A stretch of 20,325 nt of DNA from a virus (IMGVR_UViG_3300001450_000441:1-20325); one strand, 5' to 3'; shown: positions 1,593 through 13,088, counted from the stretch's first letter. Program-made: numbers and translations. The notes: generated from the letters alone by a model not told the origin.

Positions 1593-1614
1593 ATGTCTTG
1601 CTTTCTTGGTTTTT
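1593..1614 (+). repeat. Right 22-bp direct repeat flanking the iteron array
   Basis: Partner of the repeat at 1421-1442 (two mismatches). It runs into an AT-rich stretch (TTTTTATATATTCC) that could serve as a DNA-unwinding element. Confidence 0.72.
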
Positions 1615-1669
1615 ATATATTCCTTTCTTAATAATTAAAGCCGGCTTGGTTTTAATATTGAGACAATCC

Positions 1670-1685
1670 ACGCATTTAAATGCGT
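1670..1685. promoter_or_regulatory. Palindrome copy 1 (ACGCATTTAAATGCGT)
   Basis: Perfect 16-bp palindrome, with CCACG at its left edge (1668-1672). First of five copies in the window. It lies 39 bp upstream of the -35 of the promoter at 1724-1751. A separate 10-bp palindrome, AAGCCGGCTT, sits just upstream at 1638-1647. Confidence 0.7.
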
Positions 1686-1723
1686 AGAAAATAACCCCGG
1701 TATCAAGGCTTTTAATAGATGAT

Positions 1724-1751
1724 TTGACAGGCTTCCCAGAATATGGATAAT
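1724..1751 (+). promoter_or_regulatory. Sigma70-like promoter for the gene at 1932
   Basis: TTGACA (1724-1729), a 16-bp spacer, then GATAAT (1746-1751). The -35 is perfect and the -10 differs by one base. The block GATTTGAC...ATATGGATAAT is repeated at 2766-2795 before the next operon. Arms CTTCC (1732-1736) and GGAAG (1753-1757) flank the -10 as a weak possible operator. The transcript would carry a leader of about 170 nt. Confidence 0.65.
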
Positions 1752-1759
1752 AGGAAGTA

Positions 1760-1901
1760 TGAATTGAGAACAACTGGTCACTATGACAAATCGCAATTCA
1801 CTATCCACGCATTTAAATGCATGGATAACAATTAGAGAAAGTAACTTCATTATTGCTGGCATTAGTTAACGCAATAATGCCAGTATTAAGTTGATACTTT
1901 C
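1760..1901 (+). ncRNA. Highly structured 5' leader with three consecutive hairpins
   Basis: Three inverted repeats follow one another in the leader of the gene at 1932. The first has TGAATTG (1760-1766) against CAATTCA (1794-1800). The second is palindrome copy 2 (1805-1824). The third has GAAAGTA (1837-1843) with TACTTTC (1895-1901), enclosing ACTT/AAGT and CTGGCATTA (1856-1864) with TAATGCCAG (1875-1883) around a 10-nt loop. No U-run follows, so this is not an intrinsic terminator. It may be a regulatory leader or a separately stable RNA. No known riboswitch class is recognised. Confidence 0.4.
1805..1824. promoter_or_regulatory. Palindrome copy 2, with iteron-like outer arms
   Basis: CCACGCATTTAAATGCATGG has one mismatch between its arms. 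The symmetry extends outward to ATCCA on the left and TGGAT on the right (1803-1826). The right arm CATGGATAAC (1820-1829) is the same as the iteron units at 1548 and 1559, so this site is like an inverted pair of iterons. It lies 53 bp after the -10, inside the transcribed leader. Confidence 0.65.
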
Positions 1902-1931
1902 CTTTATTTTTATTTAAAAAAGGATAATAAA

Positions 1932-2609
1932 ATGCAAAACTTAATACCAAATGATGAAGTTGGACTAATAGAAAGTGAAATTAATAAAGCTATTGCAAAG
2001 GATAAAAATGCTTCAGCGATTGTTAGTAGCACTAAAGCAACAGGAAAAGCAAAAAAATCCCAGCGTGATAAGGTTAGGGTTAGCCTTAAAAAAGTAAGCC
2101 TTGATGGAAAAAGTTACGCTGGATTGCATGAAGTTGAGCTAGCTATGAATAAGCTCAAATTAGATTGCATAAAGATACAGGATGACAGCGATATGAAATC
2201 TTTAAAAAGTTGTATCGAAAAGGTTTTTATAGAGTTAGCAAATGATAAGGATTACCCCTTTCATACTATGGAAAATCGCAAAAGTATGAAAAATGTAACG
2301 ATTAAAAATCCTAACGAGTGCAAGTTGTCCGAAGTCTTACTTGAAAGAGGTGCTAATAAAGCTGATGAAAGCGAAAATACACCTCTTCCAGCTGATTTTA
2401 TTGTTAACCTAACAGCTGATGACAAAAATACTTTTTATAGTAAAAATAAAGTATTGTTTGACTCCCACTGTGAGGTTGAAAATGGTGCGTTAGTAGTTGA
2501 TGATGATACATTTAACTATCAAATGTCACTGTTTGAAACCATGCAAAAAGAGTTGATAAAAATGCGTAAAAATGCATTAGCTAAAGCAAAAAAACCTGCT
2601 AAAGTCTAA
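1932..2609 (+). CDS. Lysine-rich protein of unknown function, monocistronic, next to the iteron array
   Basis: 225 residues; I do not recognise a family. The N-terminal 55 residues are rich in Lys, Ala and Ser, and the C-terminus is basic (MRKNALAKAKKPAKV), so nucleic-acid binding is plausible. The middle has a mixed alpha/beta look without a clear catalytic motif or Cys cluster. The ATG at 1932 has AGGA 7 nt upstream. It forms its own unit: promoter at 1724-1751, folded leader, terminator at 2615-2644. A lone gene next to an iteron array is the usual position of an initiator or an origin-binding regulator, but that is inference from place only. It could equally be an early host-takeover protein. 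No signal peptide or membrane segment is seen. Confidence 0.75.
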   Translation: MQNLIPNDEVGLIESEINKAIAKDKNASAIVSSTKATGKAKKSQRDKVRVSLKKVSLDGKSYAGLHEVELAMNKLKLDCIKIQDDSDMKSLKSCIEKVFIELANDKDYPFHTMENRKSMKNVTIKNPNECKLSEVLLERGANKADESENTPLPADFIVNLTADDKNTFYSKNKVLFDSHCEVENGALVVDDDTFNYQMSLFETMQKELIKMRKNALAKAKKPAKV

Positions 2610-2614
2610 CTTCT

Positions 2615-2644
2615 AGCCCTGCTGAAATATGCAGGGCTTTTTTT
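2615..2644 (+). terminator. Intrinsic terminator after the 1932 gene
   Basis: Perfect 8-bp stem AGCCCTGC (2615-2622) with GCAGGGCT (2631-2638), an 8-nt loop and a run of seven T (2638-2644). It lies just after the stop codon. Downstream to 2767 I see only AT-rich DNA with two smaller inverted repeats: TTGCTT/AAGCAA at about 2699-2714 and ATCCAC/GTGGGAT at 2735-2755. Confidence 0.9.
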
Positions 2645-2767
2645 CGTCTGTTAAAAGTTAATAAATGAGTAAATACAAGGTTATTTGCTGATTTATTTGC
2701 TTTTTTAAGCAATTATTAATCATTTTCCAGCAAAATCCACGCTTATTAGTGGGATAGGGCAAGTGAT

Positions 2768-2795
2768 TTGACTTACGGGTTTTTATATGGATAAT
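2768..2795 (+). promoter_or_regulatory. Sigma70-like promoter for the early small-gene operon
   Basis: TTGACT (2768-2773), a 16-bp spacer, then GATAAT (2790-2795). This is the same design as the promoter at 1724-1751, including the flanking GATTTGAC and ATATGGATAAT. A start near 2802 would place palindrome copy 3 in the 5' leader. Confidence 0.62.
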
Positions 2796-2819
2796 TAAGT
2801 ATAGAAATTCACAACAAAC

Positions 2820-2837
2820 CACGCAATTAAATGCGTG
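2820..2837. promoter_or_regulatory. Palindrome copy 3 before the early operon
   Basis: CACGCAATTAAATGCGTG, a 18-bp palindrome with one mismatched pair near the centre. It ends 18 nt before the ATG at 2856 and just upstream of the ribosome binding site AAGGAG. As RNA it would form a short hairpin next to the ribosome binding site. Confidence 0.68.
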
Positions 2838-2855
2838 ACAATATAAGGAGTAAGT

Positions 2856-3035
2856 ATGGTAGATAAAAACAATTCTATGTATGACAATTGGAAAGAATAC
2901 ATGGTTGATATGTATATAGATTTATATTATGTTGCTGATGATACTGGTCTTGTCATGTTAGATGATGTAGACTTTGAAACAGCACACAAATATGCAAGCA
3001 AGATGGATGGTTGCAGTGCATATAGAAAAATATAG
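2856..3035 (+). CDS. Small acidic protein of unknown function
   Basis: 59 residues from an ATG with a good AAGGAG 7 nt upstream (2845-2850 region). It is rich in Tyr, Asp and Met (NWKEYMVDMYIDLYYVADD), with no Cys cluster or membrane segment. The C-terminal half (DFETAHKYASKMDGCSAYRKI) looks helical. It is the first gene of the early operon, directly behind palindrome copy 3. Function unknown; its size and position suit a phage host-takeover protein, which is inference. Confidence 0.7.
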   Translation: MVDKNNSMYDNWKEYMVDMYIDLYYVADDTGLVMLDDVDFETAHKYASKMDGCSAYRKI

Positions 3036-3046
3036 GGGATAGTATT

Positions 3047-3166
3047 ATGTTAAGTGGTTTGCTATTTGATTTCTTTGTGTTTATACTTGTGTTAGTGGGA
3101 TTAAGTTGTGTCTTTGTTCCATTTTTTATGGATATGAATGACAAGATAAACGAGAAATTCAAGTAA
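3047..3166 (+). CDS. 39-residue single-pass membrane protein
   Basis: MLSGLLFDFFVFILVLVGLS and the following CVFVPFF form one long hydrophobic stretch (about residues 3-27), followed by a charged tail (MDMNDKINEKFK). The predicted topology is one transmembrane helix with a cytoplasmic or periplasmic tail. It begins 12 nt after the preceding stop. A partial GGGGAT before the ATG may be its ribosome site. It is too short for a family assignment. Small membrane proteins in early phage operons often act on host envelope processes, but nothing specific is visible. Confidence 0.62.
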   Translation: MLSGLLFDFFVFILVLVGLSCVFVPFFMDMNDKINEKFK

Positions 3167-3173
3167 TAAAAAA

Positions 3174-3214
3174 TATAGGCTATTGCTATTAACTCTAGAG
3201 GGCGATAGTCTATA
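3174..3214 (+). promoter_or_regulatory. Strong mRNA hairpin upstream of the 3246 gene
   Basis: TATAGGCTATTGC (3174-3186) pairs with GCGATAGTCTATA (3202-3214): 13 of 13 positions pair as RNA, two of them G-U, around a 15-nt loop that contains CTCTAGAG. The two differences from DNA symmetry are both G-U pairs, which favours RNA folding over a protein operator. No U-run follows, so it is not a terminator. It may be an mRNA processing or stability element. Confidence 0.5.
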
Positions 3215-3245
3215 CTCTTTATTACTAAGAAGTGGAGGTTTGCCT

Positions 3246-3857
3246 ATGCAAACAATTAAAATTGGTGAGTTTGAATACTCAAGAACTAAGATAAAGAATA
3301 ATATTCTTAGGGTGTACGCTGATAGCCTAGAGTCAGAGAAAAATGACTGGTATAGAGAGGCAAATCAGTGGGCGATTGATGTTTCTAATTTTTTACTCAG
3401 TTTTAAGAGGTTAAATGTTAGTGTTAAGCAGGTATTAGGCATAACATCAGCACTTTCACCCCTCAAGGAATGGGAAAAGAATAAGGAATTGACTGTTGAT
3501 TTTATTCTTAGTGGCGATTGTGGTCACATGAAGAACAATAAAATCAAGGCTTGGAGGATATTACATCATTGTAAAACTGATGATGATATTCTTAAGGTTC
3601 TCAATGGGCCAAAGACATCAAGATTTTATATGAATATGATGTATTCCAATGATGCAACCAGTGTTACTGTTGACAGGCATGCTATTGCAATTGCGATAGG
3701 CAGGACTGCAACAGATGTAGAGCAGGTGTTAACAATTCCTAAGTATACTTTTATTGAGAATTGTTATAAAATAAGTGCTGATGTGTTGGGATTAACACCC
3801 TTACATCTTCAGTCTATAACATGGCAAGCGTGGAAACGCATGAAAGCCAATAAATAA
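3246..3857 (+). CDS. DUF7178-like phage protein, possibly helix-hairpin-helix DNA glycosylase-related
   Basis: 203 residues from the ATG at 3246, chosen because GGAGG lies 7 nt upstream; an upstream TTG in frame at 3183 would put the hairpin at 3174-3214 inside the gene. Conserved-looking blocks are DWYREA (34-39), SALSPLKEW (68-76), KAWRI (101-105), GPKTSRFYMN (121-130) and VTVDRHA (140-146). This order matches phage proteins that I know as DUF7178 (from memory). The G-x-K-T-x-x-F block followed by V-D-x-H resembles the hairpin and catalytic Asp region of HhH-GPD glycosylases, so a base-excision or DNA-binding role is possible. This is a tentative fold guess. Confidence 0.75.
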   Translation: MQTIKIGEFEYSRTKIKNNILRVYADSLESEKNDWYREANQWAIDVSNFLLSFKRLNVSVKQVLGITSALSPLKEWEKNKELTVDFILSGDCGHMKNNKIKAWRILHHCKTDDDILKVLNGPKTSRFYMNMMYSNDATSVTVDRHAIAIAIGRTATDVEQVLTIPKYTFIENCYKISADVLGLTPLHLQSITWQAWKRMKANK

Positions 3858-3866
3858 GGAGAATAT

Positions 3867-4109
3867 ATGTTTCAAGAAATGTTTGAGCAAGCGAATGCTA
3901 AACCTAGCATAGATGTTAGTAGTTTAGTAAAAGATAATTGGTATATGATTAACTTAATGGGCAGTAGTGTGCGAGCAAAACTGCTTGAGTCTCCAAAGCA
4001 AGGCAGGGGATGGAAAAAAGTAGTGCTTATGGATGTGCGTGGTAGTGACATGGGCATGTTTGATGAGATGGGCAGTGTGTATGTGTCTAATATTACAGGG
4101 GATGCATAA
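3867..4109 (+). CDS. Small protein of unknown function, SH3-like look
   Basis: 80 residues; AAGGAG lies 6-7 nt before the ATG. After a helical N-terminus, residues 21-76 alternate short beta-type segments (NWYMINLMG, SVRAKLLES, KKVVLMDVRG, GSVYVSNI) with glycine turns, as in small SH3-like barrels. No catalytic motif is seen. Its last base is shared with the next start codon (TAATG), so translation is coupled. Function unknown. Confidence 0.72.
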   Translation: MFQEMFEQANAKPSIDVSSLVKDNWYMINLMGSSVRAKLLESPKQGRGWKKVVLMDVRGSDMGMFDEMGSVYVSNITGDA

Positions 4110-4279
4110 TGACTAATACTTACCATTGTTGTGTTGATGTAACCTATACTCAGTGGATATATGTAGATGCTGAGAGTGAGGAGGATGCCATTGTGGCTGC
4201 GAAAGATGAAGCTACTGATATGCACCCTAACTCACTGGTTTTGCATGGTGTAAATGTAGATAGTGTCTGGGAGGAGTAG
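4109..4279 (+). CDS. Small beta-alpha protein, DpnD/PcfM-like (tentative)
   Basis: 56 residues from an ATG overlapping the previous stop. YHCCVDVTYTQWIYVDAESEEDAIVAAKDEA shows the pattern of two beta strands, then V-D-A-x-S-x-E-E/D-A and a helix, typical of DpnD/PcfM-like small domains. The gene at 5112 has the same pattern (VDIEADSCEEAEQIA), so the operon carries two relatives. The role is unknown. It is acidic overall and ends in VWEE. Confidence 0.65.
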   Translation: MTNTYHCCVDVTYTQWIYVDAESEEDAIVAAKDEATDMHPNSLVLHGVNVDSVWEE

Positions 4280-4281
4280 TA

Positions 4282-4698
4282 ATGCAATGTAAAGCATTTC
4301 TGGAGCAACAGAAAGAAAAGATATACACTCTCACATCTGGTAGACAAGTGACTGTTCGTGAAGTGATGGATGTTACTGGTCTTTCAAAACCCGGTGCATA
4401 CCGAAGACTAGCTATGAACAAGGATGATGATGATGTGTTTGCTAAGGCTGGCTTTCATATAGGCAGGAAAGGTGCTAAAATAGATTGGGTAAGTGAGCCA
4501 GTCAAGGTAGTCATGGGGATACCACTCAATCCAGAGTATTTGGATGGGCAAATCAAGCACTGTGCGTCTTATGACAGGGATGGGAATAAACTTTCCTATT
4601 CGCAGAGAACTGCACTGGCTAGATATAGACGCAAGCTAAGAAAAGAGTGGCGAAACAGTAGTAATACTATAATAAATAGGAGCAGTTATAATGGCTGA
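4282..4698 (+). CDS. Helix-turn-helix protein, possible phage transcription regulator
   Basis: 138 residues; GGAGGAG at 4270-4276 serves the ATG. Residues about 22-46 (QVTVREVMDVTGLSKPGAYRRLAMN) fit a helix-turn-helix with a recognition helix KPGAYRRL. A second basic stretch at about 114-128 (SQRTALARYRRKLRKEWR) could be an additional DNA-binding helix. It is the only clear HTH protein of the plus arm, so it is a candidate for binding one of the repeated palindromes; this is inference. The C-terminus overlaps the next gene by 8 nt. Confidence 0.72.
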   Translation: MQCKAFLEQQKEKIYTLTSGRQVTVREVMDVTGLSKPGAYRRLAMNKDDDDVFAKAGFHIGRKGAKIDWVSEPVKVVMGIPLNPEYLDGQIKHCASYDRDGNKLSYSQRTALARYRRKLRKEWRNSSNTIINRSSYNG

Positions 4699-4864
4699 TA
4701 TGTATTTAAAGTTGTATGAAGAATGTAATAAACTTAGGGCCGAACTTGAGCAAGAAGCACCTGATGTTTCTGATGATAAAACATTGGAGGTATTTCTTGA
4801 TAAGGTAGAGCGTTTGAAAAGTAAATATAATAAACTTATAAAGATGGAGGATAATATATTATGA
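4691..4864 (+). CDS. Small coiled-coil protein of unknown function
   Basis: 57 residues. The ATG overlaps the end of the HTH gene, with AGGAG at 4679-4683 upstream, and the stop overlaps the next ATG (ATGA). Two charged amphipathic helices (MADMYLKLYEECNKLRAELE and LEVFLDKVERLKSKYNKLI) flank an acidic turn, so a coiled coil or helical hairpin is likely. No known family. Confidence 0.65.
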   Translation: MADMYLKLYEECNKLRAELEQEAPDVSDDKTLEVFLDKVERLKSKYNKLIKMEDNIL

Positions 4865-5112
4865 TTGATTTTAAATGGCACGAATTCAACAAAGAAGTTG
4901 ATGAGCGTATAGAACGTGCTATGAATATACAAAATGAGTACGCAGGTTGTGGTTTGTTTGACGATGATGGCAAGTTAGTGGATACTGGTATGTATCAGCT
5001 GGATAAAGGTACTATGTTAGAGATAATGCAGTACCAACAAGAGCAGATAACAGAGCAGAACAATAAGATTAATGACTTAAATTCTAGACTTTATAATATG
5101 GAGAAACTATAA
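4861..5112 (+). CDS. Small protein with C-terminal coiled coil
   Basis: 83 residues starting in an ATGA overlap. The N-terminal half contains CGLFDDDGKLVDTGMYQLD, a glycine-turn beta-like region; residues 50-83 (EIMQYQQEQITEQNNKINDLNSRL in part) form a Gln/Asn-rich coiled coil. The neighbouring gene at 4691 is also helical, so the two could pair. Function unknown. Confidence 0.7.
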   Translation: MIDFKWHEFNKEVDERIERAMNIQNEYAGCGLFDDDGKLVDTGMYQLDKGTMLEIMQYQQEQITEQNNKINDLNSRLYNMEKL

Positions 5113-5354
5113 TGACATGGTTCAATGTTAAAATAAAATTAATACAAGAGTCGGTTTTTAATGTAGATATAGAAGCTGACAGTTGTGAAGAGGCAGAACA
5201 AATAGCCACGGACAGTGTATGGGATGATGATTACGCTGATTGGATAAGGTCATCACTTGAAATTACTGATGAGGAGTATGATGCTGATGAGTGGTGTCGA
5301 GACTGTGATAGGCCTATTGATTACTGTAAATGTGAGGAGGATAAAGATGAGTAA
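5112..5354 (+). CDS. DpnD/PcfM-like domain with a C-terminal zinc-knuckle-like Cys cluster
   Basis: 80 residues from an ATG overlapping the previous stop (TAATG). Residues 3-36 repeat the pattern seen in the gene at 4109: beta strands and then VDIEADSCEEAEQIA. The middle is very acidic. The tail has Cys62, Cys65, Cys72 and Cys74 in the pattern CxxC-x6-CxC, which could bind one zinc ion. No catalytic residues are recognised. It overlaps the next gene by 8 nt. Confidence 0.7.
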   Translation: MTWFNVKIKLIQESVFNVDIEADSCEEAEQIATDSVWDDDYADWIRSSLEITDEEYDADEWCRDCDRPIDYCKCEEDKDE

Positions 5355-5541
5355 CCCAAATAATAATATGAATGCCTACAAACAAGCATTGCAAATTAAC
5401 AGGGATTTGAAGAAAGAAAATGACAGGCTGGTTGCTGTATTAGTAGAGGTAAACGAGTATCTTATAGGTTATAATATTACTTCCTCTGTTGAAGACAGGG
5501 ATATTGGTAAACTACAACAATTAATAGGAGATGTGCTATGA
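5347..5541 (+). CDS. Small helical protein of unknown function
   Basis: 64 residues from the ATG at 5347, chosen because GAGGAGG (5334-5340) lies 6 nt upstream; a longer in-frame ORF runs back to 5257 but would overlap the previous gene by nearly 100 nt. Residues 10-40 form an amphipathic, Lys/Glu-rich helix (NRDLKKENDRLVAVLVEVNEYL) of leucine-zipper type. It is coupled to the next gene by ATGA. Function unknown. Confidence 0.65.
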   Translation: MSNPNNNMNAYKQALQINRDLKKENDRLVAVLVEVNEYLIGYNITSSVEDRDIGKLQQLIGDVL

Positions 5542-5714
5542 GTAAGATAGGAAATTATTTAATATGGTGTGAAGAGCAAGGCTATACTGATGATGAGGGT
5601 GTAGTCTCTATGGAATATGCTACTGAGTATATGAAGACTAAAGAATATTACCAAGAACATATAAACTTTAGTAAATTATTAGAAGATAATGACAGTGCTA
5701 AGAGTATACAATAA
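5538..5714 (+). CDS. Small acidic protein closing the early operon
   Basis: 58 residues from an ATGA overlap, with GGAG at 5527-5530 as ribosome site. It is acidic and Tyr-rich (YLIWCEEQGYTDDEG, TEYMKTKEYYQEH). No membrane segment, no known motif. It ends 6 nt before the extended -10 at 5721, so the operon appears to run into the second control region without a visible terminator. Confidence 0.62.
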   Translation: MSKIGNYLIWCEEQGYTDDEGVVSMEYATEYMKTKEYYQEHINFSKLLEDNDSAKSIQ

Positions 5715-5720
5715 AAGTTA

Positions 5721-5729
5721 TGATATAAT
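5721..5729 (+). promoter_or_regulatory. Extended -10 promoter before the replication unit
   Basis: TGATATAAT is an extended -10 with a perfect TATAAT (5724-5729), at the very start of the gene-free control region. No -35 is evident. It would give the ssDNA-binding protein message a leader of about 205 nt containing the repeats and hairpins below. Confidence 0.48.
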
Positions 5730-5736
5730 AATACTT

Positions 5737-5809
5737 AGTATATATACTAGGTTTACCTATGATGTTACTAGTTGTAAGTTATATATAGTATATATTCTAG
5801 GTTTACCTA
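5737..5809. repeat. Two 23-bp direct repeats with CTAGGTTTACCTAG dyads
   Basis: Bases 5737-5759 and 5787-5809 are identical at 22 of 23 positions and start exactly 50 bp apart. Each begins AGTATATAT and ends CTAGGTTTACCTA. In the second copy the dyad is complete (CTAGGT-TT-ACCTAG, 5797-5810). Between them, 5774-5793 matches 1214-1233 in the divergent region at 19 of 20 bases. They are probable regulator-binding or phage-specific promoter sites. The 50-bp spacing is within half a base pair of five turns at 10.5 bp per turn (52.5 bp would be exact), so same-face binding is only approximate. Confidence 0.6.
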
Positions 5810-5820
5810 GTTTAGTATCT

Positions 5821-5868
5821 CTAGATGTGTCACAGTTTTTCCTTCCATTTTTTCTGTGGCACTTCTAG
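5821..5868 (+). promoter_or_regulatory. 15-bp hairpin with polypyrimidine loop upstream of the ssDNA-binding protein gene
   Basis: Left arm 5821-5835 (CTAGATGTGTCACAG) and right arm 5854-5868 (CTGTGGCACTTCTAG) pair at 14 of 15 positions in RNA, one of them G-U, with one U-U mismatch. The 18-nt loop is almost all pyrimidine. No U-run follows. A leader hairpin, mRNA processing site or DNA operator are all possible. Confidence 0.5.
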
Positions 5869-5894
5869 TGGTATTAATACTGCTAATAAAAGCT

Positions 5895-5910
5895 ACGCAT
5901 TTAAATGCGT
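5895..5910. promoter_or_regulatory. Palindrome copy 4 before the ssDNA-binding protein gene
   Basis: Perfect ACGCATTTAAATGCGT, 31 nt upstream of the ATG at 5942 and 20 nt before the AGGAG ribosome site. It follows the hairpin at 5821-5868 by 26 nt. Confidence 0.72.
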
Positions 5911-5941
5911 GGCATTGATGTTAACTATAAAGGAGATATAT

Positions 5942-6328
5942 ATGTCAGAAACAATGGCACTAACTGGTAAGGTTGTATTTAATCATGTAACTATACCCGA
6001 CAACTTCAAAGGCTCAGAGAGATATGCTCTGACCATTGCGTTGGATAAGGCTGGTCTTAAAACTGCTGAGAAAGCAGGTCTTAAGACTAGTGAGTATGAT
6101 GGTAATGTACAAATTACTAGTCGCAGAAAGGTAGACTTTGACCGACCTAAGATTTACAATAAAGACAAGACGTTGGTTGATGTCGGACACCTGTCGCTAT
6201 ATGGAGATAAGGTAACTGTGGCTGTTAAGCAGGGTAAGGGAGACTTCAGCGAATACACCTATCTTGAGGCTATTCGTGTGGAAGAGAAGGCAGATGGAGT
6301 GGAGGACTTTGACCCATCTGAATTTTAA
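5942..6328 (+). CDS. Single-stranded DNA-binding protein (T7 gp2.5-type role)
   Basis: 128 residues. It should coat ssDNA at the fork and recruit polymerase and primase-helicase. The start is the ATG at 5942 with AGGAG 6 nt upstream; a longer in-frame ORF exists from 5825, but it would translate the palindrome and hairpin. The body alternates beta strands (GKVVFNHVTIPD, RYALTIALDK, NVQITSRRKVDF, HLSLYGDKVTVAVKQGKG, TYLEAIRVEE) as in an OB fold. The tail EEKADGVEDFDPSEF is acidic and ends in Phe, the partner-binding tail of phage and bacterial SSBs. The place before primase-helicase and polymerase supports the call. Sequence similarity to a named SSB was not testable here. Confidence 0.78.
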   Translation: MSETMALTGKVVFNHVTIPDNFKGSERYALTIALDKAGLKTAEKAGLKTSEYDGNVQITSRRKVDFDRPKIYNKDKTLVDVGHLSLYGDKVTVAVKQGKGDFSEYTYLEAIRVEEKADGVEDFDPSEF

Positions 6329-6349
6329 TTCTGACTAGGCTGTTAAACA

Positions 6350-6378
6350 GGGGCATCTTCGGATGCCCTTTATATTTT
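6350..6378 (+). terminator. Hairpin terminator with UUCG tetraloop after the ssDNA-binding protein gene
   Basis: GGGCATC (6351-6357), loop TTCG, GATGCCC (6362-6368), then TTTATATTTT. The T tract is interrupted, so read-through is likely. This would give more ssDNA-binding protein transcript than downstream replication transcript, as suits a stoichiometric protein. Confidence 0.75.
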
Positions 6379-6394
6379 AAGTAAGGGAGAAAAC

Positions 6395-8044
6395 ATGGAA
6401 AATAAATTACTCCGTAAGGAGCAATGCCCAGATTGTGCTGAGTCTGGTGCTGATACAAGCAAGGATAACATGGCTGTTTATTCGGATGGACAGACACACT
6501 GCTTTGCGTGTAACAAGCATGGATTTATAGAGCATAAAGAAAAGGTACAGGTGGTTGAACCCACCAAGAAAGACTGGATGGTTGAGTATAGCAGAGGTGA
6601 TTACTATGCACTGCCTGATAGAAAGCTAAGGGCCGAGACACTTGAGAAGTACAAAGTCAAGGCAGAGAAAGATGGCAAAGGCAACATCATCAAGCACCAC
6701 TATCCCAATCACAATAAGAAAGGTGAGATGGTGGGTATAAAGACAAGGATAGTAGCCAACAAGAAGTTCTTTGGTGCTGGCAAGACTAGTGCAGTCAACC
6801 AGTTGTTTGGTCAGTCTTTGTTCAGGTCGGGTGGTAAGTTCATTACCATATGTGAGGGTGAGTTAGATGCTATGGCTACCTATGAGATGTTTGGTTCTAA
6901 GTGGCCCTGTGTTAGTGTAATCAATGGTGCTAACTGTGTTGATAACATCAAGGCTAATCTTGAGTGGCTTGATTCGTTTGAAACTGTGGTGATATGCTTT
7001 GATAATGATGAGGCAGGAAGAAAAGCTGCGAGGTTAGTAGCACCTGTGCTTGGCCCTAATAAATGTAAGATACTGACACTGGCTAAACACAAGGATGCAT
7101 GTGATTACCTGTCAAGTGGTGATGCTAAAGCATTCTATGATGAATGGTGGAATGATGCCAAGCCATACACTGTTAGTGGTGTGGCTACCATAGAGGACAT
7201 GCGTAATGCCATGATGGATTACCGGGACACAGAACTAATACCTCTGCCCGATTCGTTTGGCAATCTTAATGAGATGATGCGTGGTGGTGTAGCCAGAGGT
7301 GAGTTGGTGAGTATCATTGCACACACTAGTATAGGTAAGACTACCATACTTAATGAACTCATATACCACTTTGCTTTTAACACGAAAGAAAAGATAGGTT
7401 GCTTTATGGTGGAGGATAATATAGACGAGACCATTAGGAAAGTGGTGAGTGTACACACAGGTGAGAACATGCAGTTGACCAAGCCTAATGACTTGGATGT
7501 TGAACATATAATGGACAACGCTATAGACATAGGGTTTGGCTCTAAGATACAACTGCATAACGATGGTGGTGGTAGCATAGACTTGGAAGAAATGTTCGCC
7601 AAGATTAGATACTTTATAAAAGGAGTGGGTTGTTCTGTTATACTTGTTGACCCATTGCATACTGCTATTAAGAACTTGAGCAATGAGAACATCGAGGAAG
7701 TTATGGATAGATTTATTAAACTGTGCAAGGAGACAAAGGCTACAGTGATACTGTCTACACATACTAGAAAGCCAGATGATGGCTCACATCCTCATAAGAT
7801 TAGTGAGTATGATGTCAAGGGTAGTGGTGCTATACCCCAAGCGTGTCACACTAATATACTATTCTCAAGAGACAAGTTAGCAGAGGATGAGTACGAGAAG
7901 AACTCTACTAGGATACGAGTGCCAAAGATGAGGAGGACTGGACAGACTGGTGAGGCAGGATGGGCATTCTTCAATGGCATTACTGGTAGATTAGAGAAAG
8001 GACAAAACCCTAATGCCCAAGGAGGTGGCGATGCGGACTTTTAG
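6395..8044 (+). CDS. Bifunctional primase-helicase (T7 gp4-like)
   Basis: 549 residues, close to T7 gp4 (566). It makes RNA primers and unwinds DNA at the phage fork. Domains in order: a Cys4 zinc-binding domain (Cys11, Cys14, Cys36, Cys39); a TOPRIM primase with EGELDA at 154-159 and DNDEAG at 203-208; a RecA-type DnaB helicase with Walker A AHTSIGKTT at 309-317 (Lys315) and Walker B VILVDP ending at about Asp419-Pro420, then the ILSTHTRKP strand. GGGAG lies upstream of the ATG. Zinc motif and catalytic residues are all intact, so both activities are expected. The gene overlaps the polymerase start by 14 nt. Confidence 0.95.
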   Translation: MENKLLRKEQCPDCAESGADTSKDNMAVYSDGQTHCFACNKHGFIEHKEKVQVVEPTKKDWMVEYSRGDYYALPDRKLRAETLEKYKVKAEKDGKGNIIKHHYPNHNKKGEMVGIKTRIVANKKFFGAGKTSAVNQLFGQSLFRSGGKFITICEGELDAMATYEMFGSKWPCVSVINGANCVDNIKANLEWLDSFETVVICFDNDEAGRKAARLVAPVLGPNKCKILTLAKHKDACDYLSSGDAKAFYDEWWNDAKPYTVSGVATIEDMRNAMMDYRDTELIPLPDSFGNLNEMMRGGVARGELVSIIAHTSIGKTTILNELIYHFAFNTKEKIGCFMVEDNIDETIRKVVSVHTGENMQLTKPNDLDVEHIMDNAIDIGFGSKIQLHNDGGGSIDLEEMFAKIRYFIKGVGCSVILVDPLHTAIKNLSNENIEEVMDRFIKLCKETKATVILSTHTRKPDDGSHPHKISEYDVKGSGAIPQACHTNILFSRDKLAEDEYEKNSTRIRVPKMRRTGQTGEAGWAFFNGITGRLEKGQNPNAQGGGDADF

Positions 8045-9755
8045 TTGTGATATAGAGACAGATGGACTAGACCCTAGTGTTGTATGGTGTATAGCTGTGC
8101 AAGATATAGACTCGGGACAGGTCATTACCTTTTCAGGTACTACCCTTGGATTGTTTAAGCCTTGGATGGCATCAGAGGTAGACTGTCTTGTGTTTCACAA
8201 TGGCATAGGTTTTGATGTGCCAGTCTTGACTCGACTGTGTGGCATAGACTTTAGTGATGTCCAGATTATGGACACATTGGTGATGAGTCAGTTAGATGAG
8301 CCACGCAGGGATGCAGGACATTCACTTGCTAGTTGGGGTGAGCGTCTGGGATTTGATAAAGGAGACCACGAGGACTGGTCTAAGTTTAGTGAAGAGATGT
8401 TGACTTACTGTATCAGAGATACTGAGATTACAACGAAGTTATACAGACACCTTAAGCTAAAAGAACTGAGCCAAGATGCACTGGCACTTGAGTATGCTAC
8501 AAAGAAACACTGCACACAACAAGAGAACAATGGATGGCACTTTGATTTTCATGGTGCAATGCTATTACTTCAGGATATTAATGAAGACTTGCGTAGTGTA
8601 GAGGAGGAGGTGCATAAAACATTTACACCACTGGCTGTTTGGAAAAGCAAAGCACCAGTCAAGAATAGATGGAAGAAAGGTGGTGGTCGCACTATGGCAT
8701 ATCAATCAGAGGTAAAACTTGAGTGCCATACTAATGAAGATGGTGACTATGGTTATTGGCACTACCCTGAGTTTAATCTAGGCAGTAGGCAACAGGTAGG
8801 AAGATACCTCATGCACTATGGTTGGAAACCCAGTGAGCATACTGCAACTGGATTGCCTAAGGTAGATGAGAGTACGCTTAAGGATGTTGATATACCTGAG
8901 GCCAAGCTAATAGCTAGGTACTTGATGCTACAGAAGAGGCAGGGTCAGGTTAGCAGCTGGATAGATGAGTACAACTACAACACAGGAAGAATACACAGTA
9001 GAGTACACACCATGGGAACTGTCACACACCGGATGTCTAGTAGTAACCCGAACTTACAGCAAGTTACTGCAAGTAACAAGGAGTATGGACAAGAGATGCG
9101 TGGTTTGTTTACTGTACCTGATGGCAAGGTGATTGTGGGTGCTGACCTTTCCGGATTAGAACTCAGGTGTCTCGCCCACTACATGAAAGATAATAACTAT
9201 ACTGAAGAGATACTCAGTGGTGACATACACACAGCTAATCAAAAAGCTGCAGGTCTTGCCACTCGTGATGAGTCCAAGAGATTCATCTATGCTTACCTGT
9301 ATGGTGGAGGTGACAACCTGATAGGTAACATATGTGGTGGTGGCAGGGAGTTAGGCAAGAAAGTAAAGGCTCAGTTTCTAGACAACACACCAGCACTGCG
9401 TAGCTTGAGAGTACGCATTGAGAAAGCTAGCAAGAGAGGTTGGATTAGAACACTTGATGGTCGCAGGGTACATGTGCGTAGTCCACACTCAGCACTTAAC
9501 TTTTTGTTACAGAGTGCAGGCTCAATCATAGCAAAGAGAGCATGGGTTACATTCCATTCTCTTGCACATGAGTTTAGTTACAAACAGTTAGGTGTGATAC
9601 ATGATGAGATACAGATAGAGTGTGACACATCAGATGCAGACGCTATAGGAAAGCTAGTCGTTGATGCTATGGAGTCAACAACACAGTATTACAAATTGAA
9701 TTGCCCTATTACTGGTGAGTATAAAATAGGTAAAACATGGAACGATACACACTAA
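8031..9755 (+). CDS. Family A DNA polymerase with 3'-5' exonuclease (T7-like)
   Basis: 574 residues from the ATG at 8031, chosen because AAGGAGG (8019-8025) lies 5 nt upstream; an in-frame ATG at 8013 has no such site. The exonuclease motifs are SCDIETDGL (Asp7, Glu9), VFHNGIGFD, and TYCIRDTEITTKLYRHL. The polymerase motifs are A (ADLSGLELR, Asp372), B (RDESKRFIYAYLYGGG with Arg412, Lys416, Tyr420) and C (HDE, 524-526). Tyr420 sits at the position of E. coli Phe762 and T7 Tyr526. It is about 130 residues shorter than T7 polymerase, so the thioredoxin-binding insert of the thumb is probably absent. It is translationally coupled to primase-helicase. Confidence 0.96.
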   Translation: MRTFSCDIETDGLDPSVVWCIAVQDIDSGQVITFSGTTLGLFKPWMASEVDCLVFHNGIGFDVPVLTRLCGIDFSDVQIMDTLVMSQLDEPRRDAGHSLASWGERLGFDKGDHEDWSKFSEEMLTYCIRDTEITTKLYRHLKLKELSQDALALEYATKKHCTQQENNGWHFDFHGAMLLLQDINEDLRSVEEEVHKTFTPLAVWKSKAPVKNRWKKGGGRTMAYQSEVKLECHTNEDGDYGYWHYPEFNLGSRQQVGRYLMHYGWKPSEHTATGLPKVDESTLKDVDIPEAKLIARYLMLQKRQGQVSSWIDEYNYNTGRIHSRVHTMGTVTHRMSSSNPNLQQVTASNKEYGQEMRGLFTVPDGKVIVGADLSGLELRCLAHYMKDNNYTEEILSGDIHTANQKAAGLATRDESKRFIYAYLYGGGDNLIGNICGGGRELGKKVKAQFLDNTPALRSLRVRIEKASKRGWIRTLDGRRVHVRSPHSALNFLLQSAGSIIAKRAWVTFHSLAHEFSYKQLGVIHDEIQIECDTSDADAIGKLVVDAMESTTQYYKLNCPITGEYKIGKTWNDTH

Positions 9756-9784
9756 TTTTAAGGTAAAATACATACTAATTTTAA
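9751..9784 (+). repeat. Short direct repeat at the polymerase-exonuclease junction
   Basis: ACTAATTTTAA occurs at 9751-9761 and 9774-9784; GGTAAAA precedes both, with a 10-bp shorter spacing in the second. The first copy contains the polymerase stop codon. It looks like a small local duplication in the 45-bp intergenic gap; no function is evident. Confidence 0.45.
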
Positions 9785-9800
9785 TGAGAGGAGAAAGACT

Positions 9801-10607
9801 ATGAAGTCTATAAATACACTAATCCCTGACATATACAGTGTGATGGAGTCCAAGCAGTACGATGGTGACTTGAACTCTATTGCAATGCAGGCAGGGAGAG
9901 AAGTAGAGGATGCAATCAAAGATGCATTCACACCTAGAGAAGACAACAGAGGTTTGCGTATGTCTGGCATAGGTAGATGTGAAAGAGCACAATGGTACAA
10001 CTACAAAGGATACACCCCTGAGGCAATCAAGGGTGAGGTGTACCTAACTTTTTTGCAAGGCCATATACTAGAAGCAGTGCTTGTAGCTTTGGTTAAACTA
10101 TCAGGACATACAGTAACAGAACAACAAAAGAAACACACGATTGAAGGAATCAATGGTTCTCAAGACTGTACAATTGATGGTGAATTAGTTGACATAAAGA
10201 CTGCAAGTGCGTGGTCTTGGGAAAACAAATTCAAAGAGGCAGGCATTGCTGATGATGCGTTTGGTTACATCAAGCAACTATCTGCTTATGGTAAAGGAGA
10301 CAAGAGAAAAAAAGGATATTTCCTTGCCTTAAATAAAAACAAATCAACACTTAAGTTATGCGAGCAGACACTAGAGCAAGACATAGATACTTTTATTGTT
10401 GATTTAAAAAGCAAGATGGAACTAGACACACCACCGATGAGACTAGCTAATGCAACAACTTGGAACAAAGCCAAGACAGAAGAGAAGTTGTGCATGACCT
10501 GTGCGTTCTGTGGTTTTAAGAATGATTGCTTTGGTAGTTTAGACGCTAGACCTATTCCATCTGGAAAAATAACTAATTACTATGTAACAAGTGGAGCTGA
10601 CTTTTGA
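9801..10607 (+). CDS. Cas4/AddB-like Fe-S PD-(D/E)XK exonuclease
   Basis: 268 residues. This is likely the phage recombination or host-DNA-degrading exonuclease, in the place of T7 gp6. Nuclease motifs: QGHILE (86-91, Glu91), Asp126, then VDIKTAS with Asp131 and Lys133, and QLSAY with Gln159 and Tyr163 (motif IV). Four cysteines fit an Fe-S clamp: Cys60 in GRCERA, then Cys234, Cys237 and Cys243 (CxxC-x5-C), with an extra Cys231. This arrangement, one early Cys and three late, is that of Cas4 and AddB. GAGGAGAAAG lies before the ATG. No CRISPR genes are nearby, so a CRISPR role is unlikely. The stop overlaps the TTG start of the next gene. Confidence 0.88.
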   Translation: MKSINTLIPDIYSVMESKQYDGDLNSIAMQAGREVEDAIKDAFTPREDNRGLRMSGIGRCERAQWYNYKGYTPEAIKGEVYLTFLQGHILEAVLVALVKLSGHTVTEQQKKHTIEGINGSQDCTIDGELVDIKTASAWSWENKFKEAGIADDAFGYIKQLSAYGKGDKRKKGYFLALNKNKSTLKLCEQTLEQDIDTFIVDLKSKMELDTPPMRLANATTWNKAKTEEKLCMTCAFCGFKNDCFGSLDARPIPSGKITNYYVTSGADF

Positions 10608-10777
10608 AACAACTACCTGAACTAAAGGCATACATTGCATCAACGTATGATGTGTGCCTTATATGTGATGAACTAGAAATTGAACCACAAGAATTGCTAG
10701 ATGCTTTTGAAAAAAGATTAATAGAAAAGCAAGACAGGTTTCTTGAAGACTTTGAGGAGAGTACATGGACTACATAG
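10604..10777 (+). CDS. Small TTG-start helical protein
   Basis: 57 residues from the TTG at 10604, which overlaps the exonuclease stop (TTGA); GGAG at 10593-10596 is 7 nt upstream. No ATG is available in this frame near the start. The sequence holds two Cys (CLIC, 18-21) and a charged helix (LLDAFEKRLIEKQDRFLEDFEE). The coupling, ribosome site and lack of a coding gap without it support reality. RusA at 13786 uses the same TTGA arrangement. Function unknown. Confidence 0.68.
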   Translation: MKQLPELKAYIASTYDVCLICDELEIEPQELLDAFEKRLIEKQDRFLEDFEESTWTT

Positions 10778-10965
10778 AAATAAGTATTGCTTTCATATTG
10801 TTAGGTGCTGGTGCTATATACTTCACACACAAGAGAGCATACCAAAAAGGAATTACTGATGCTGTGCTTATGCACAGAACTGGTAGATTAAAATATAAAG
10901 ACTATCTAGATGATGCAGGTGAACGCATGGTAGACATAGAGATAGAACCACTGGAGGAAGAATGA
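10765..10965 (+). CDS. Small membrane-anchored protein
   Basis: 66 residues. One N-terminal transmembrane helix (about 5-22, EISIAFILLGAGAIYF) is followed by a basic segment (THKRAYQKG) and an acidic cytoplasmic-type tail ending EPLEEE. GAGGAG lies 5 nt before the ATG. It overlaps the preceding gene by 13 nt and the ribonucleotide reductase by 4 nt (ATGA). Similar membrane-anchored small proteins occur in marine phages, as I recall; function unknown. Confidence 0.7.
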   Translation: MDYIEISIAFILLGAGAIYFTHKRAYQKGITDAVLMHRTGRLKYKDYLDDAGERMVDIEIEPLEEE

Positions 10966-12926
10966 AAAAATTACCAACTGACTACCAAAATTTTATTGCT
11001 TTAAGCAGGTACGCAAGATGGCTACCTGAAAAGAACAGAAGAGAAACATGGGAAGAAACAGTAGCTAGGTACTTTGACTTTATGGAAGAGCACCTAAAAG
11101 AAAACACTAACCAAGAGTTAGTACCCAAGACAAGAAAAGTATTGGAAGATGCAGTGCTTAACTTAGATGTTATGCCTAGCATGAGAGCATTAATGACTGC
11201 TGGTAAAGCACTCAAAGATAACAACATAGCAGGGTACAACTGTGCATACCTTAGTGTTGACCACCCTAAAGCATTTGATGAATGTTTGTATGTGCTAATG
11301 CATGGCACTGGTGTAGGCTTTAGTGTAGAGAGACAGTTCATTAGGAAACTGCCTGAAGTACCAGAAGAAATGATTGATGTTGAAGACACAGTGGTAGTCC
11401 AGGATTCTAAAGAAGGCTGGCAATCTGCGTTCAGAAAACTAATAGCTTACCTATACAACGGAGAGATGCCTAAGTGGGACTTCTCTAAGGTTAGACCTAA
11501 AGGTGCAAGACTAGCTACCTTTGGTGGCAGGGCAAGTGGGCCTGAGCCTTTGGTAGATTTATTTAATTACTCTACCAATCTATTTAAAGATGCAGTGGGC
11601 AGGCAACTTACTAGCTATGAGTGTCATCGTATGATGTGCAAGATAGCAGAGGTAGTAGTGGTAGGTGGTGTGCGTAGGTCAGCACTTATCTCACTTAGTA
11701 ATCTTACTGATGAGCGTATGCGTAGTGCTAAGTCTGGACAGTGGTGGTCAGACACACCAGAGATGGCACTGAGTAACAACAGTGTGTGCTACACAGAAAA
11801 ACCAGACATAGGAATCTTTATGAAAGAATGGACTTCATTGTATGAGTCTAAATCTGGTGAGCGTGGTATCTTTAACAGAGAGGCAGCCATCAAACAGGTA
11901 GCTAAGAATGGTAGACGAGACACAGACCATGAGTTTGGTTGCAATCCTTGTAGTGAAATACTATTAAGAGATGGACAGTTCTGTAACTTGACTGAGGTTG
12001 TAGTAAGAGCAGGAGACACACAGAAAGAAATACTTCGTAAGACTAGGCTGGCTACTATACTGGGTACATTCCAAGCCTCACTTACTAACATCAAAAGACT
12101 GCGACCTAAGTGGGTACAGAATACAGAAGAAGAGGCACTACTAGGTGTCAGCCTTACAGGTATCATGGACAATGCATACATGAATGGCAGTAGTAATGAC
12201 AGGGGTTACTATGGTAAGCGTAGTTTACCCGACTTCTTATCTGACTTGCGTAAAGAATCAGTTGAAGTTAACAGACATTGGTCAGAGCTTCTAGGCATTA
12301 GCCAAGCTACTGCAACTACTGCTATTAAACCTAGTGGTACAGTCAGTCAGTTAGTTGACAGTGCTAGTGGTATACATACTAGACACAGTGAATACTATAT
12401 TCGTAGAGTAAGAGCAGATAGAAAAGACCCTATAGCTAGACTGATGGAAGACCAAGGCATACCTGCTGAGAACGATGTAATGAAACCTAACAGTGTTAAA
12501 GTGTTCTCATTTCCTATGAAAGCACCTGACAGTGCTGTTACTAGAAACGAAAGGAATGCCATTGAACAACTAGAACTGTGGCTTATGTATCAGAGGTACT
12601 ACTGTGAGCACAAGCCTAGTGTAACCATTAGTGTTAGGGAACATGAGTGGATGGAAGTAGGTGCGTGGGTATACAAACATTTTGATGAGGTTAGTGGTGT
12701 TAGTTTTTTACCACACTCAGACCACACCTACCAACAAGCACCTTATGAAGAATGCGACAAGGAAACATATACCGAACTACTTAATGAAATGCCTGAGGCA
12801 GTTGACTGGGACTTGATTAGTGAGTACGAACTTACTGACCAGACAGTAGGAACTAAAGCATTGGCATGCACAGGAAGTATATGTGAGCTGGTTGATTTAG
12901 TAGAAGAAGAAAGAGATGTGGAATGA
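10962..12926 (+). CDS. nrdJ: Class II adenosylcobalamin-dependent ribonucleotide reductase (monomeric type)
   Basis: 654 residues. It reduces ribonucleotides, probably triphosphates, to deoxyribonucleotides with a B12-derived radical and no oxygen need. It resembles the Lactobacillus leichmannii enzyme (RTPR, 739 residues), with conserved spacing of key residues: Cys94 (RTPR Cys119) in GYNCAY, Asn328-Pro-Cys330-Ser-Glu332 (RTPR Asn406, Cys408, Glu410), Cys341 (RTPR Cys419) and the C-terminal shuttle pair Cys636 and Cys641 (RTPR 731 and 736). All five cysteines are present, so it should be active with a host thioredoxin. The host must supply or import cobalamin. The start overlaps the previous stop; GGAGGAAG lies upstream. 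Confidence 0.95.
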   Translation: MKKLPTDYQNFIALSRYARWLPEKNRRETWEETVARYFDFMEEHLKENTNQELVPKTRKVLEDAVLNLDVMPSMRALMTAGKALKDNNIAGYNCAYLSVDHPKAFDECLYVLMHGTGVGFSVERQFIRKLPEVPEEMIDVEDTVVVQDSKEGWQSAFRKLIAYLYNGEMPKWDFSKVRPKGARLATFGGRASGPEPLVDLFNYSTNLFKDAVGRQLTSYECHRMMCKIAEVVVVGGVRRSALISLSNLTDERMRSAKSGQWWSDTPEMALSNNSVCYTEKPDIGIFMKEWTSLYESKSGERGIFNREAAIKQVAKNGRRDTDHEFGCNPCSEILLRDGQFCNLTEVVVRAGDTQKEILRKTRLATILGTFQASLTNIKRLRPKWVQNTEEEALLGVSLTGIMDNAYMNGSSNDRGYYGKRSLPDFLSDLRKESVEVNRHWSELLGISQATATTAIKPSGTVSQLVDSASGIHTRHSEYYIRRVRADRKDPIARLMEDQGIPAENDVMKPNSVKVFSFPMKAPDSAVTRNERNAIEQLELWLMYQRYYCEHKPSVTISVREHEWMEVGAWVYKHFDEVSGVSFLPHSDHTYQQAPYEECDKETYTELLNEMPEAVDWDLISEYELTDQTVGTKALACTGSICELVDLVEEERDVE

Positions 12927-13063
12927 TAAACACTATAATACTTATAATAGCATTGCAAGTGATTGTTATTACACTCGCAGGGTGCACTACATTTGAAGAG
13001 CAAATGCAACTTCATTGTCATGCACCAGTGGATTCAAGTCTTTGCTTAGGTTGGAAGACTTGA
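12923..13063 (+). CDS. 46-residue lipoprotein
   Basis: MINTIILIIALQVIVITLAGC is a signal peptide with the lipobox LAGC; Cys21 would be lipidated. The mature part is only 26 residues (CTTFEEQMQLHCH...), with Cys32 and Cys41 able to form a disulfide in the periplasm. The start is an ATGA overlap with the ribonucleotide reductase stop. Phage lipoproteins include Rz1 spanins and superinfection-exclusion proteins such as T5 Llp; this one is not proline-rich and has no Rz partner here, so exclusion is the more attractive guess. Too short for certain assignment. Confidence 0.68.
   Translation: MINTIILIIALQVIVITLAGCTTFEEQMQLHCHAPVDSSLCLGWKT
13034..13063 (+). promoter_or_regulatory. Perfect 9-bp hairpin at the 3' end of the lipoprotein gene
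   Basis: TCAAGTCTT (13034-13042) and AAGACTTGA (13055-13063) are exact inverted copies around 12 nt; the right arm ends exactly with the stop codon. There is no U-run, so termination is unlikely. Palindrome copy 5 follows 8 nt later, giving two adjacent hairpins in the transcript. Confidence 0.5.
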
Positions 13064-13070
13064 TGTGTCT

Positions 13071-13088
13071 CACGCATTTAAATGCGTG
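13071..13088. promoter_or_regulatory. Palindrome copy 5 before the membrane-protein gene
   Basis: Perfect 18-bp palindrome CACGCATTTAAATGCGTG, 29 nt before the ATG at 13118 and about 17 nt before its AAGGAG site. It lies deep inside the replication unit, far from the other copies. Confidence 0.74.

Follow-up and report, generated by a model that had tools for sequence, protein, structure and literature searches.

What reads a short palindrome that recurs almost unchanged at five places along one arm of a phage genome? The question is raised by the 20,325-nucleotide (nt) viral sequence IMGVR_UViG_3300001450_000441:1-20325 (hereafter the window, meaning the whole stretch analysed), a phage fragment whose minus strand bears the terminase/structural arm and whose plus strand bears the early/replication arm. 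An initial annotation of the window had suggested that the palindromes are a control element used throughout the phage, which splits the plus arm into units and could serve as binding site of a dimeric regulator, as a set of mRNA hairpins, or as both. Several dozen contigs of relatives, collected from IMG/VR by scans that first used the ssb and primase proteins and afterwards proteins of the gene at 1932-2609 (the slot gene), allow a comparative answer: a single DNA-binding regulator encoded by the phage, namely the slot gene product, probably uses the palindromes as its operators. The regulator-site part of the earlier proposal is thereby the most likely one. The main point, which is not visible from the window alone, is that the palindrome changes in concert with the slot gene.

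A scan of the window for CACGCATTTAAATGCGTG (18 base pairs, bp), with up to three mismatches allowed, found five matches with 1, 1, 1, 1 and 0 mismatches in copy order and no sixth copy. One hundred dinucleotide shuffles yielded no match, giving a chance expectation of 0 for the set. The copies, to which no strand is assigned, lie at 1669-1686, 1806-1823, 2820-2837, 5894-5911 and 13071-13088, all in the plus arm. Copy 2 is located in the leader of the slot gene, and copies 3, 4 and 5 end 18, 30 and 29 nt upstream of the start codons at 2856, 5942 (ssb) and 13118, with an AAGGAG-type ribosome site in between in all three cases; copy 5 also follows a stop codon by 8 nt. Its position is occupied in L005, L007 and L012 (contigs of relatives carry L numbers) and empty in the other relatives examined. 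With plausible start codons all five palindromes are non-coding. Copy 4 falls within the ssb open reading frame (ORF) only if this is extended mechanically in the 5' direction (5825-6328), the real start being 5942, and copy 5 includes a further ATG in frame (13082), ahead of the likely start codon (13118). The initial annotation was thus accurate in reporting five near-identical palindromes, in placing them outside genes, and in its distance of 18-31 nt to the genes behind copies 3-5 with their ribosome sites.

Each genome among the relatives uses a nearly uniform version of the palindrome, and this version varies from one lineage to the next. The window, L004, L005 and L012 carry CACGCAWTTAAWTGCGTG; L007, L008, L055, L057 and L058 carry CAAGCAWTTAAWTGCTTG; L016 has ACRCAATTWAATTGYGT, with a similar form in L060; and L006 and L011 have ACACTTCNNGAAGTGT. 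Further types are TCGGAACAYGTTCCGA (L029, L031, L033, L064, L066), TCGTAACGYGTTACGA (L030, L067), TTGTAACGYGTTACAR (L045, L068), TCGGAAYWRTTCCGA (L032, L046, L073), TCCGAAGTCCTCGGA (L021, L052), TCGTATYGGATACGA (L009, L010), ATTRGCGCGCGCYAAT (L017, L018, L020, L048, L050), AATTRGCGNCGCYAATT (L019), and GTAACACTGTTAC (L026-L028). Half-sites include the CACGCA, CAAGCA, CACTTC, TCGGAA, TCGTAA, TTGTAA, and TTRGCGC types, among others. Because the sequence is lineage-specific, the exact 18-mer was found in IMG/VR in the window only, by a pattern search that may leave out very near records. The sites are 16-20 bp long and number two to five per locus. In nearly all types they occur on both sides of the slot gene and ahead of the first early genes. 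Additional sites precede ssb and the gene following the ribonucleotide reductase (RNR) gene in class A, exo and a gene with methyltransferase-like sequence (named from inspection) in class B, and ssb in class C. The sites are confined to one arm in the 47.5-kb contig of the near-complete relative L007: it has five and no more, every one of them in the early arm and none in the structural half, as the sole repeated inverted repeat of its kind; the 40-kb contig of L011 also has five. The ends of the L007 contig overlap at 88% identity over 4.3 kb (L075 1-4306 versus L077 1663-5968). Therefore, this contig spans the gene cycle but represents no clean circular genome, and the overlap suggests strain variation or a duplicated module. 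Neither of the two outcomes that the initial annotation had named as refuting it was seen: the motif is not frequent elsewhere in L007, and close relatives have sites at matching places, either unchanged (L005) or in a lineage-specific version.

An unbiased scan for palindromes with exact 6-bp arms detected sets of at least three copies in 19 of 40 loci with a slot gene and in 0 of 12 slot-less loci (Fisher p=0.002, for contigs that are not independent). Class C and two-copy loci, found with class-specific patterns, are outside this test. The three-copy criterion was adopted after a looser, two-copy scan had not separated the two kinds of loci; this looser scan had passed over class-C quasi-palindromes and had scored AT-rich repeats.

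The change in palindrome sequence maps to the slot gene in the pair L005 and L007. L005 has CACGCA-type palindromes at the five sites where L007 has CAAGCATTTAATTGCTTG, exact at each of them. The two contigs are 94.7% and 91.1% identical on the two flanks of a cassette of approximately 1.3 kb (5270-6596 in L005), which comprises a repeat array, the first two copies, and the slot gene; copy 3 lies just past its edge. Their slot proteins share 46.8% identity, as compared to 91-100% for nearly all larger proteins. Far from the cassette, at copies 4 and 5, 7/26 positions differ (the palindrome and the adjoining 3-4 nt) within near-identical flanks, and this clustering is significant (hypergeometric p=2e-4 and 8e-8). 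The consensus change from L005 to L007 is symmetric, with C3 becoming A3 and G16 becoming T16, plus a change at central position 12. Such a set-wide change of a palindrome together with one adjacent gene in close relatives points to a fast-evolving viral control protein and to DNA switches that match it. A third contig, L006, is a hybrid: it combines an L011-type slot gene and operators 1-3 with a CACGCA palindrome retained at ssb, and its remainder is mostly 96-100% like L005 with the exception of two small genes (L006 1-10955). This mosaic reflects either an intermediate stage in evolution or a chimeric assembly.

The reader of the palindromes might instead be a host factor or a different phage protein, with the slot gene varying for unrelated reasons. 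Such a reader would fit with the fact that the link between slot protein and DNA is drawn from comparative genetics, and with a few small early ORFs that also differ between L005 and L007 (70-84% identity). However, a shared host factor is a poor explanation because two phages that are nearly identical elsewhere differ in their operators, and in nearly all relatives possessing the slot gene it is this gene that is flanked by palindromes. Within the phage, the initial annotation had named two candidates, the slot protein and a small helix-turn-helix (HTH)-like protein (4282-4698). The former tracks the palindrome sequence across relatives. The latter, which is present in nearly all relatives and weakly resembles a Ren-like exclusion protein (PHROG, E=7e-4), shows 96% identity between L005 and L007 despite their different palindromes, and it was rejected as the palindrome reader. 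A reader other than the slot protein thus appears very unlikely.

Outside the regulator gene, the copies mostly end 15-38 nt ahead of a start codon and could also act as RNA, that is, as 5'-leader hairpins controlling translation, stability, or processing, perhaps with the slot protein as RNA binder. The ssb leader lends itself to this interpretation. In the window it contains three successive hairpins (5826-5911), the longest with a pyrimidine-rich loop (TTTTTCCTTCCATTTTTT) and without an Rfam match. This upstream hairpin persists in most of 20 aligned relatives and covaries, with both sides changed in 13/19 pairs; it may act as RNA to control ssb or may form a stem-loop in DNA. The hairpin position that copy 4 occupies is filled in nearly all relatives examined, with or without the palindrome and often with a UUCG or similar tetraloop. 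Moreover, the stems at copies 4 and 5 lengthen outward by G-U pairs in the window, L005, and L007. Other observations speak against RNA. Copy 1 precedes the predicted promoter of the slot gene. The exo and post-RNR leaders of most relatives without an operator lack a comparable hairpin, and in the exo leader the class-B operator looks as though some 24 bp had been cleanly inserted after the stop codon and ahead of the ribosome site. In L004, L011, L016, L018, L029, L031, L032, and L052, quasi-palindromes with an asymmetric center occur in both orientations relative to transcription, as would be expected for a dimer reading duplex DNA; in L052, for example, CTCCGAAGTCCTCGGAG is present twice in exact form and once more with one mismatch, and the exo site has the exact reverse complement of this sequence. 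Finally, a generic leader hairpin cannot account for concerted change at sites 11 kb apart. An RNA function of the set is therefore unlikely. On the simplest reading of these sequences, the operators are DNA elements that in class A took over a pre-existing leader-hairpin position at ssb. The combined reading of the initial annotation, hairpin and regulator site in one, is thus right for ssb, whereas its hairpin proposal gains no support from the exo and post-RNR leaders.

If the operators are read as DNA by the slot protein, their positions relative to predicted promoters suggest what binding would achieve. The best sigma-70-like promoter between 1100 and 6500 (TTGACA-16-GATAAT, 11/12 consensus positions, plus strand, 1724-1751), a consensus match only, lies between copies 1 and 2 and reads into the slot gene. 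Copy 1 is centered at about -80 from the predicted transcript start and has the same place in L004, L005, L006, L007, and L011. The second-best promoter (TTGACT-16-GATAAT, 10/12, plus strand, 2768-2795) directly precedes copy 3 and would drive the early operon; copy 3 would cover approximately +19 to +36 of this transcript. Promoters similar to this second one are present in L004, L007, and L011. Activation of the following gene is unlikely because the operators end 15-38 nt before the start codon and leave no space for a promoter, and together these positions favor repression or a roadblock over activation. The slot protein would bind the palindromes, most likely as a dimer, and repress its own gene, whose promoter is flanked by copies 1 and 2. 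The copies on both sides of this promoter suggest autoregulation, possibly by looping, and their spacing varies among relatives. Regulator bound to copy 3, in the transcript start region, would damp or shut off the early operon, and at copies 4 and 5 it would do the same to ssb/replication and to the genes after RNR, respectively. It might block initiation or halt the host RNA polymerase within the leader. Specificity would resemble lock and key within each lineage: divergence or replacement of the regulator cassette would usually be matched by change in the remote operators. The pattern, in which operators peculiar to each lineage co-vary with a regulator gene not described before, is well supported; from it we infer the mechanism, including direct binding, dimerization, repression rather than another use of the sites, and timing in infection.

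The slot gene of the window (plus strand, 225 aa, pI 8.5) is followed by an intrinsic terminator-like hairpin with a T run (2615-2638, plus strand). Its product has no sequence match in Pfam, PHROG, NCBIfam, or PDB, nor in 50,697 phage records, and represents an orphan, previously undescribed family of likely DNA-binding proteins. It is related to the L006 and L011 proteins (hhalign E=1.5e-5), and profile comparison revealed a second related set in class B, including L009, L010, and L021. In L052 the slot gene (3600-4203) appears N-terminally truncated or altered with respect to L021, and the operators are kept. An AlphaFold model based on 11 sequences (mean pLDDT 63.6) predicts a helical N-terminal part (residues 11-105, pLDDT of about 70-89) and the remainder poorly. 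Fold searches with this model gave no reliable match (best VIA Z 6.9; no Foldseek match below E=0.1). Thus, DNA binding by the slot protein is deduced from comparative genetics and not from its fold.

The slot protein could alternatively be a replication initiator or partition protein, with the palindromes placed beside an origin in the manner of iterons or parS. Upstream of copy 1, at 1440-1590 and inside the swapped cassette, the window indeed contains an array of TGTGGATAAC-like, DnaA-box-like repeats, which is a possible origin. Relatives have arrays of other kinds at this place, among them a ATATATGAATTCATACACAG type in L004, L006, L007, and L011. Unlike the iterons of Rep initiators, however, arrays and operators do not change together: L004, L007, and L011 share one repeat type and have three different operators. 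In contrast to ParB/parS systems, no ParA-type ATPase (PF01656) was detected in eight contigs, in a search with a positive control, and no ParB match was obtained. Sites in the ssb, exo, and post-RNR leaders also suit gene control better, and a role in initiation or partitioning is improbable.

Several observations weigh against operators read by the slot protein. Neither sequence nor fold searches recognized an HTH or other known DNA-binding fold in this protein, and profile comparison of classes A, B, C, and D established no homology among the classes. The window and L004 have a common CACGCA half-site and slot proteins that are just 47% identical, so that operators do not diverge in strict proportion to the proteins. 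The ssb site of L006 is unmatched to its regulator; hence, a remote operator does not always follow. CAAGCA and CACACA sites occur together in L059, all five copies in L007 have a single orientation, and slot-less loci also contain two-copy AT-rich palindromes. IMG/VR contigs, moreover, are possibly chimeric.

The plus arm of the window further encodes a primase/helicase (6395), DNA polymerase A (8013), a Cas4-type exonuclease, RNR, and RusA. The first two follow the 128-aa protein at 5942-6328 (plus strand), a putative operator target, which was called ssb in the initial annotation and has no PHROG or Pfam match. The early operon encodes a DUF7178 family protein (3246-3857; Pfam E=5e-33). An AT-rich element, TTATATATAGTATAT ... 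CTAGGT, is common to 1205-1260 (near terS) and 5775-5815 (before ssb), and slot-less relatives have AGTATATATATACT at both places. No tRNA genes were found in the window, and no Rfam elements at gathering score. The DNA polymerase is closest to those of Pelagibacter and Roseobacter podophages, and the L007 major head protein to those of Sinorhizobium phage phiM5, some Pseudomonas podophages, and environmental phages. Positions 1600-6400 have no DNA-level similarity to isolate phages, and the primase has no match in GTDB genome contigs. Tyrosine recombinases (PF00589) were not found by sequence in nine contigs (control positive 14/14), nor serine recombinases (PF00239) in eight (control positive). 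A search for single-subunit RNA polymerase (PF00940) gave no match, but its control likewise gave no signal. Several contigs are fragments, and a temperate or plasmid-like lifestyle may apply.

The system points to a control layer over early and replication genes in marine phages. As a tentative idea, which we consider possible rather than probable, virulent phages without lysogeny may carry an immunity-like code that consists of a fast-diversifying autogenous repressor and private operators on early and replication genes. If so, one phage could shut down another in the same cell when both have the same operator type, though not when their types differ, and selection arising from co-infection would be the force behind the diversity of operator types. 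Around a dozen regulator/operator types, matched in nature, exist in this one marine phage group, and with the near-isogenic pair L005/L007 and the mismatched hybrid L006 the evolution of binding specificity and regulons becomes directly testable.

Known phage control systems share some of these traits. Repressors of the lambda cI type are dimeric, use palindromic operators, and regulate their own synthesis. Palindromic operators and presumed autoregulation are found here too, whereas the operators are single sites spread over about 11 kb, several of them within operons beside ribosome sites, and the slot protein has no recognizable HTH. Another repeated intergenic motif, the SPBRE of SPbeta, was found in silico years before its repressor, MrpR (PMC10516654). 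The palindromes were likewise recognized from sequence as an intergenic repeat, but SPBRE is a 15-bp motif of a temperate Bacillus prophage, and MrpR has a tyrosine-recombinase fold, while PF00589 is absent from the nine contigs and the slot protein lacks any Pfam match. The cluster A mycobacteriophages (L5, Bxb1, Trixie) come closest in arrangement: their repressor sites are repeated in promoters and short intergenic gaps, include an autoregulatory site, and vary in motif by lineage in step with the repressor (PMC6550527, PMC9283540). The window-type sites have the same kinds of locations, and their motif also differs between genomes together with the regulator. However, cluster A stoperators are asymmetric 13-bp sites that occur in 20-30 copies, oriented with transcription, in temperate phages, and the cluster A repressor binds as a monomer through an HTH and a second domain (PMC9283540). 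Here, the palindromes measure 16-20 bp, number two to five, and in several genomes occur in both orientations; an integrase was not detected in the eight to nine contigs, and the slot protein, with neither a Pfam nor an NCBIfam match and a model of low to moderate confidence, shows no recognized HTH. The cluster A repressor, once bound, stops elongation, and a halt of this kind inside the leader is one of the two modes that might apply to the slot protein. The system works like a small operator/stoperator set, yet it lacks defining features of that family.

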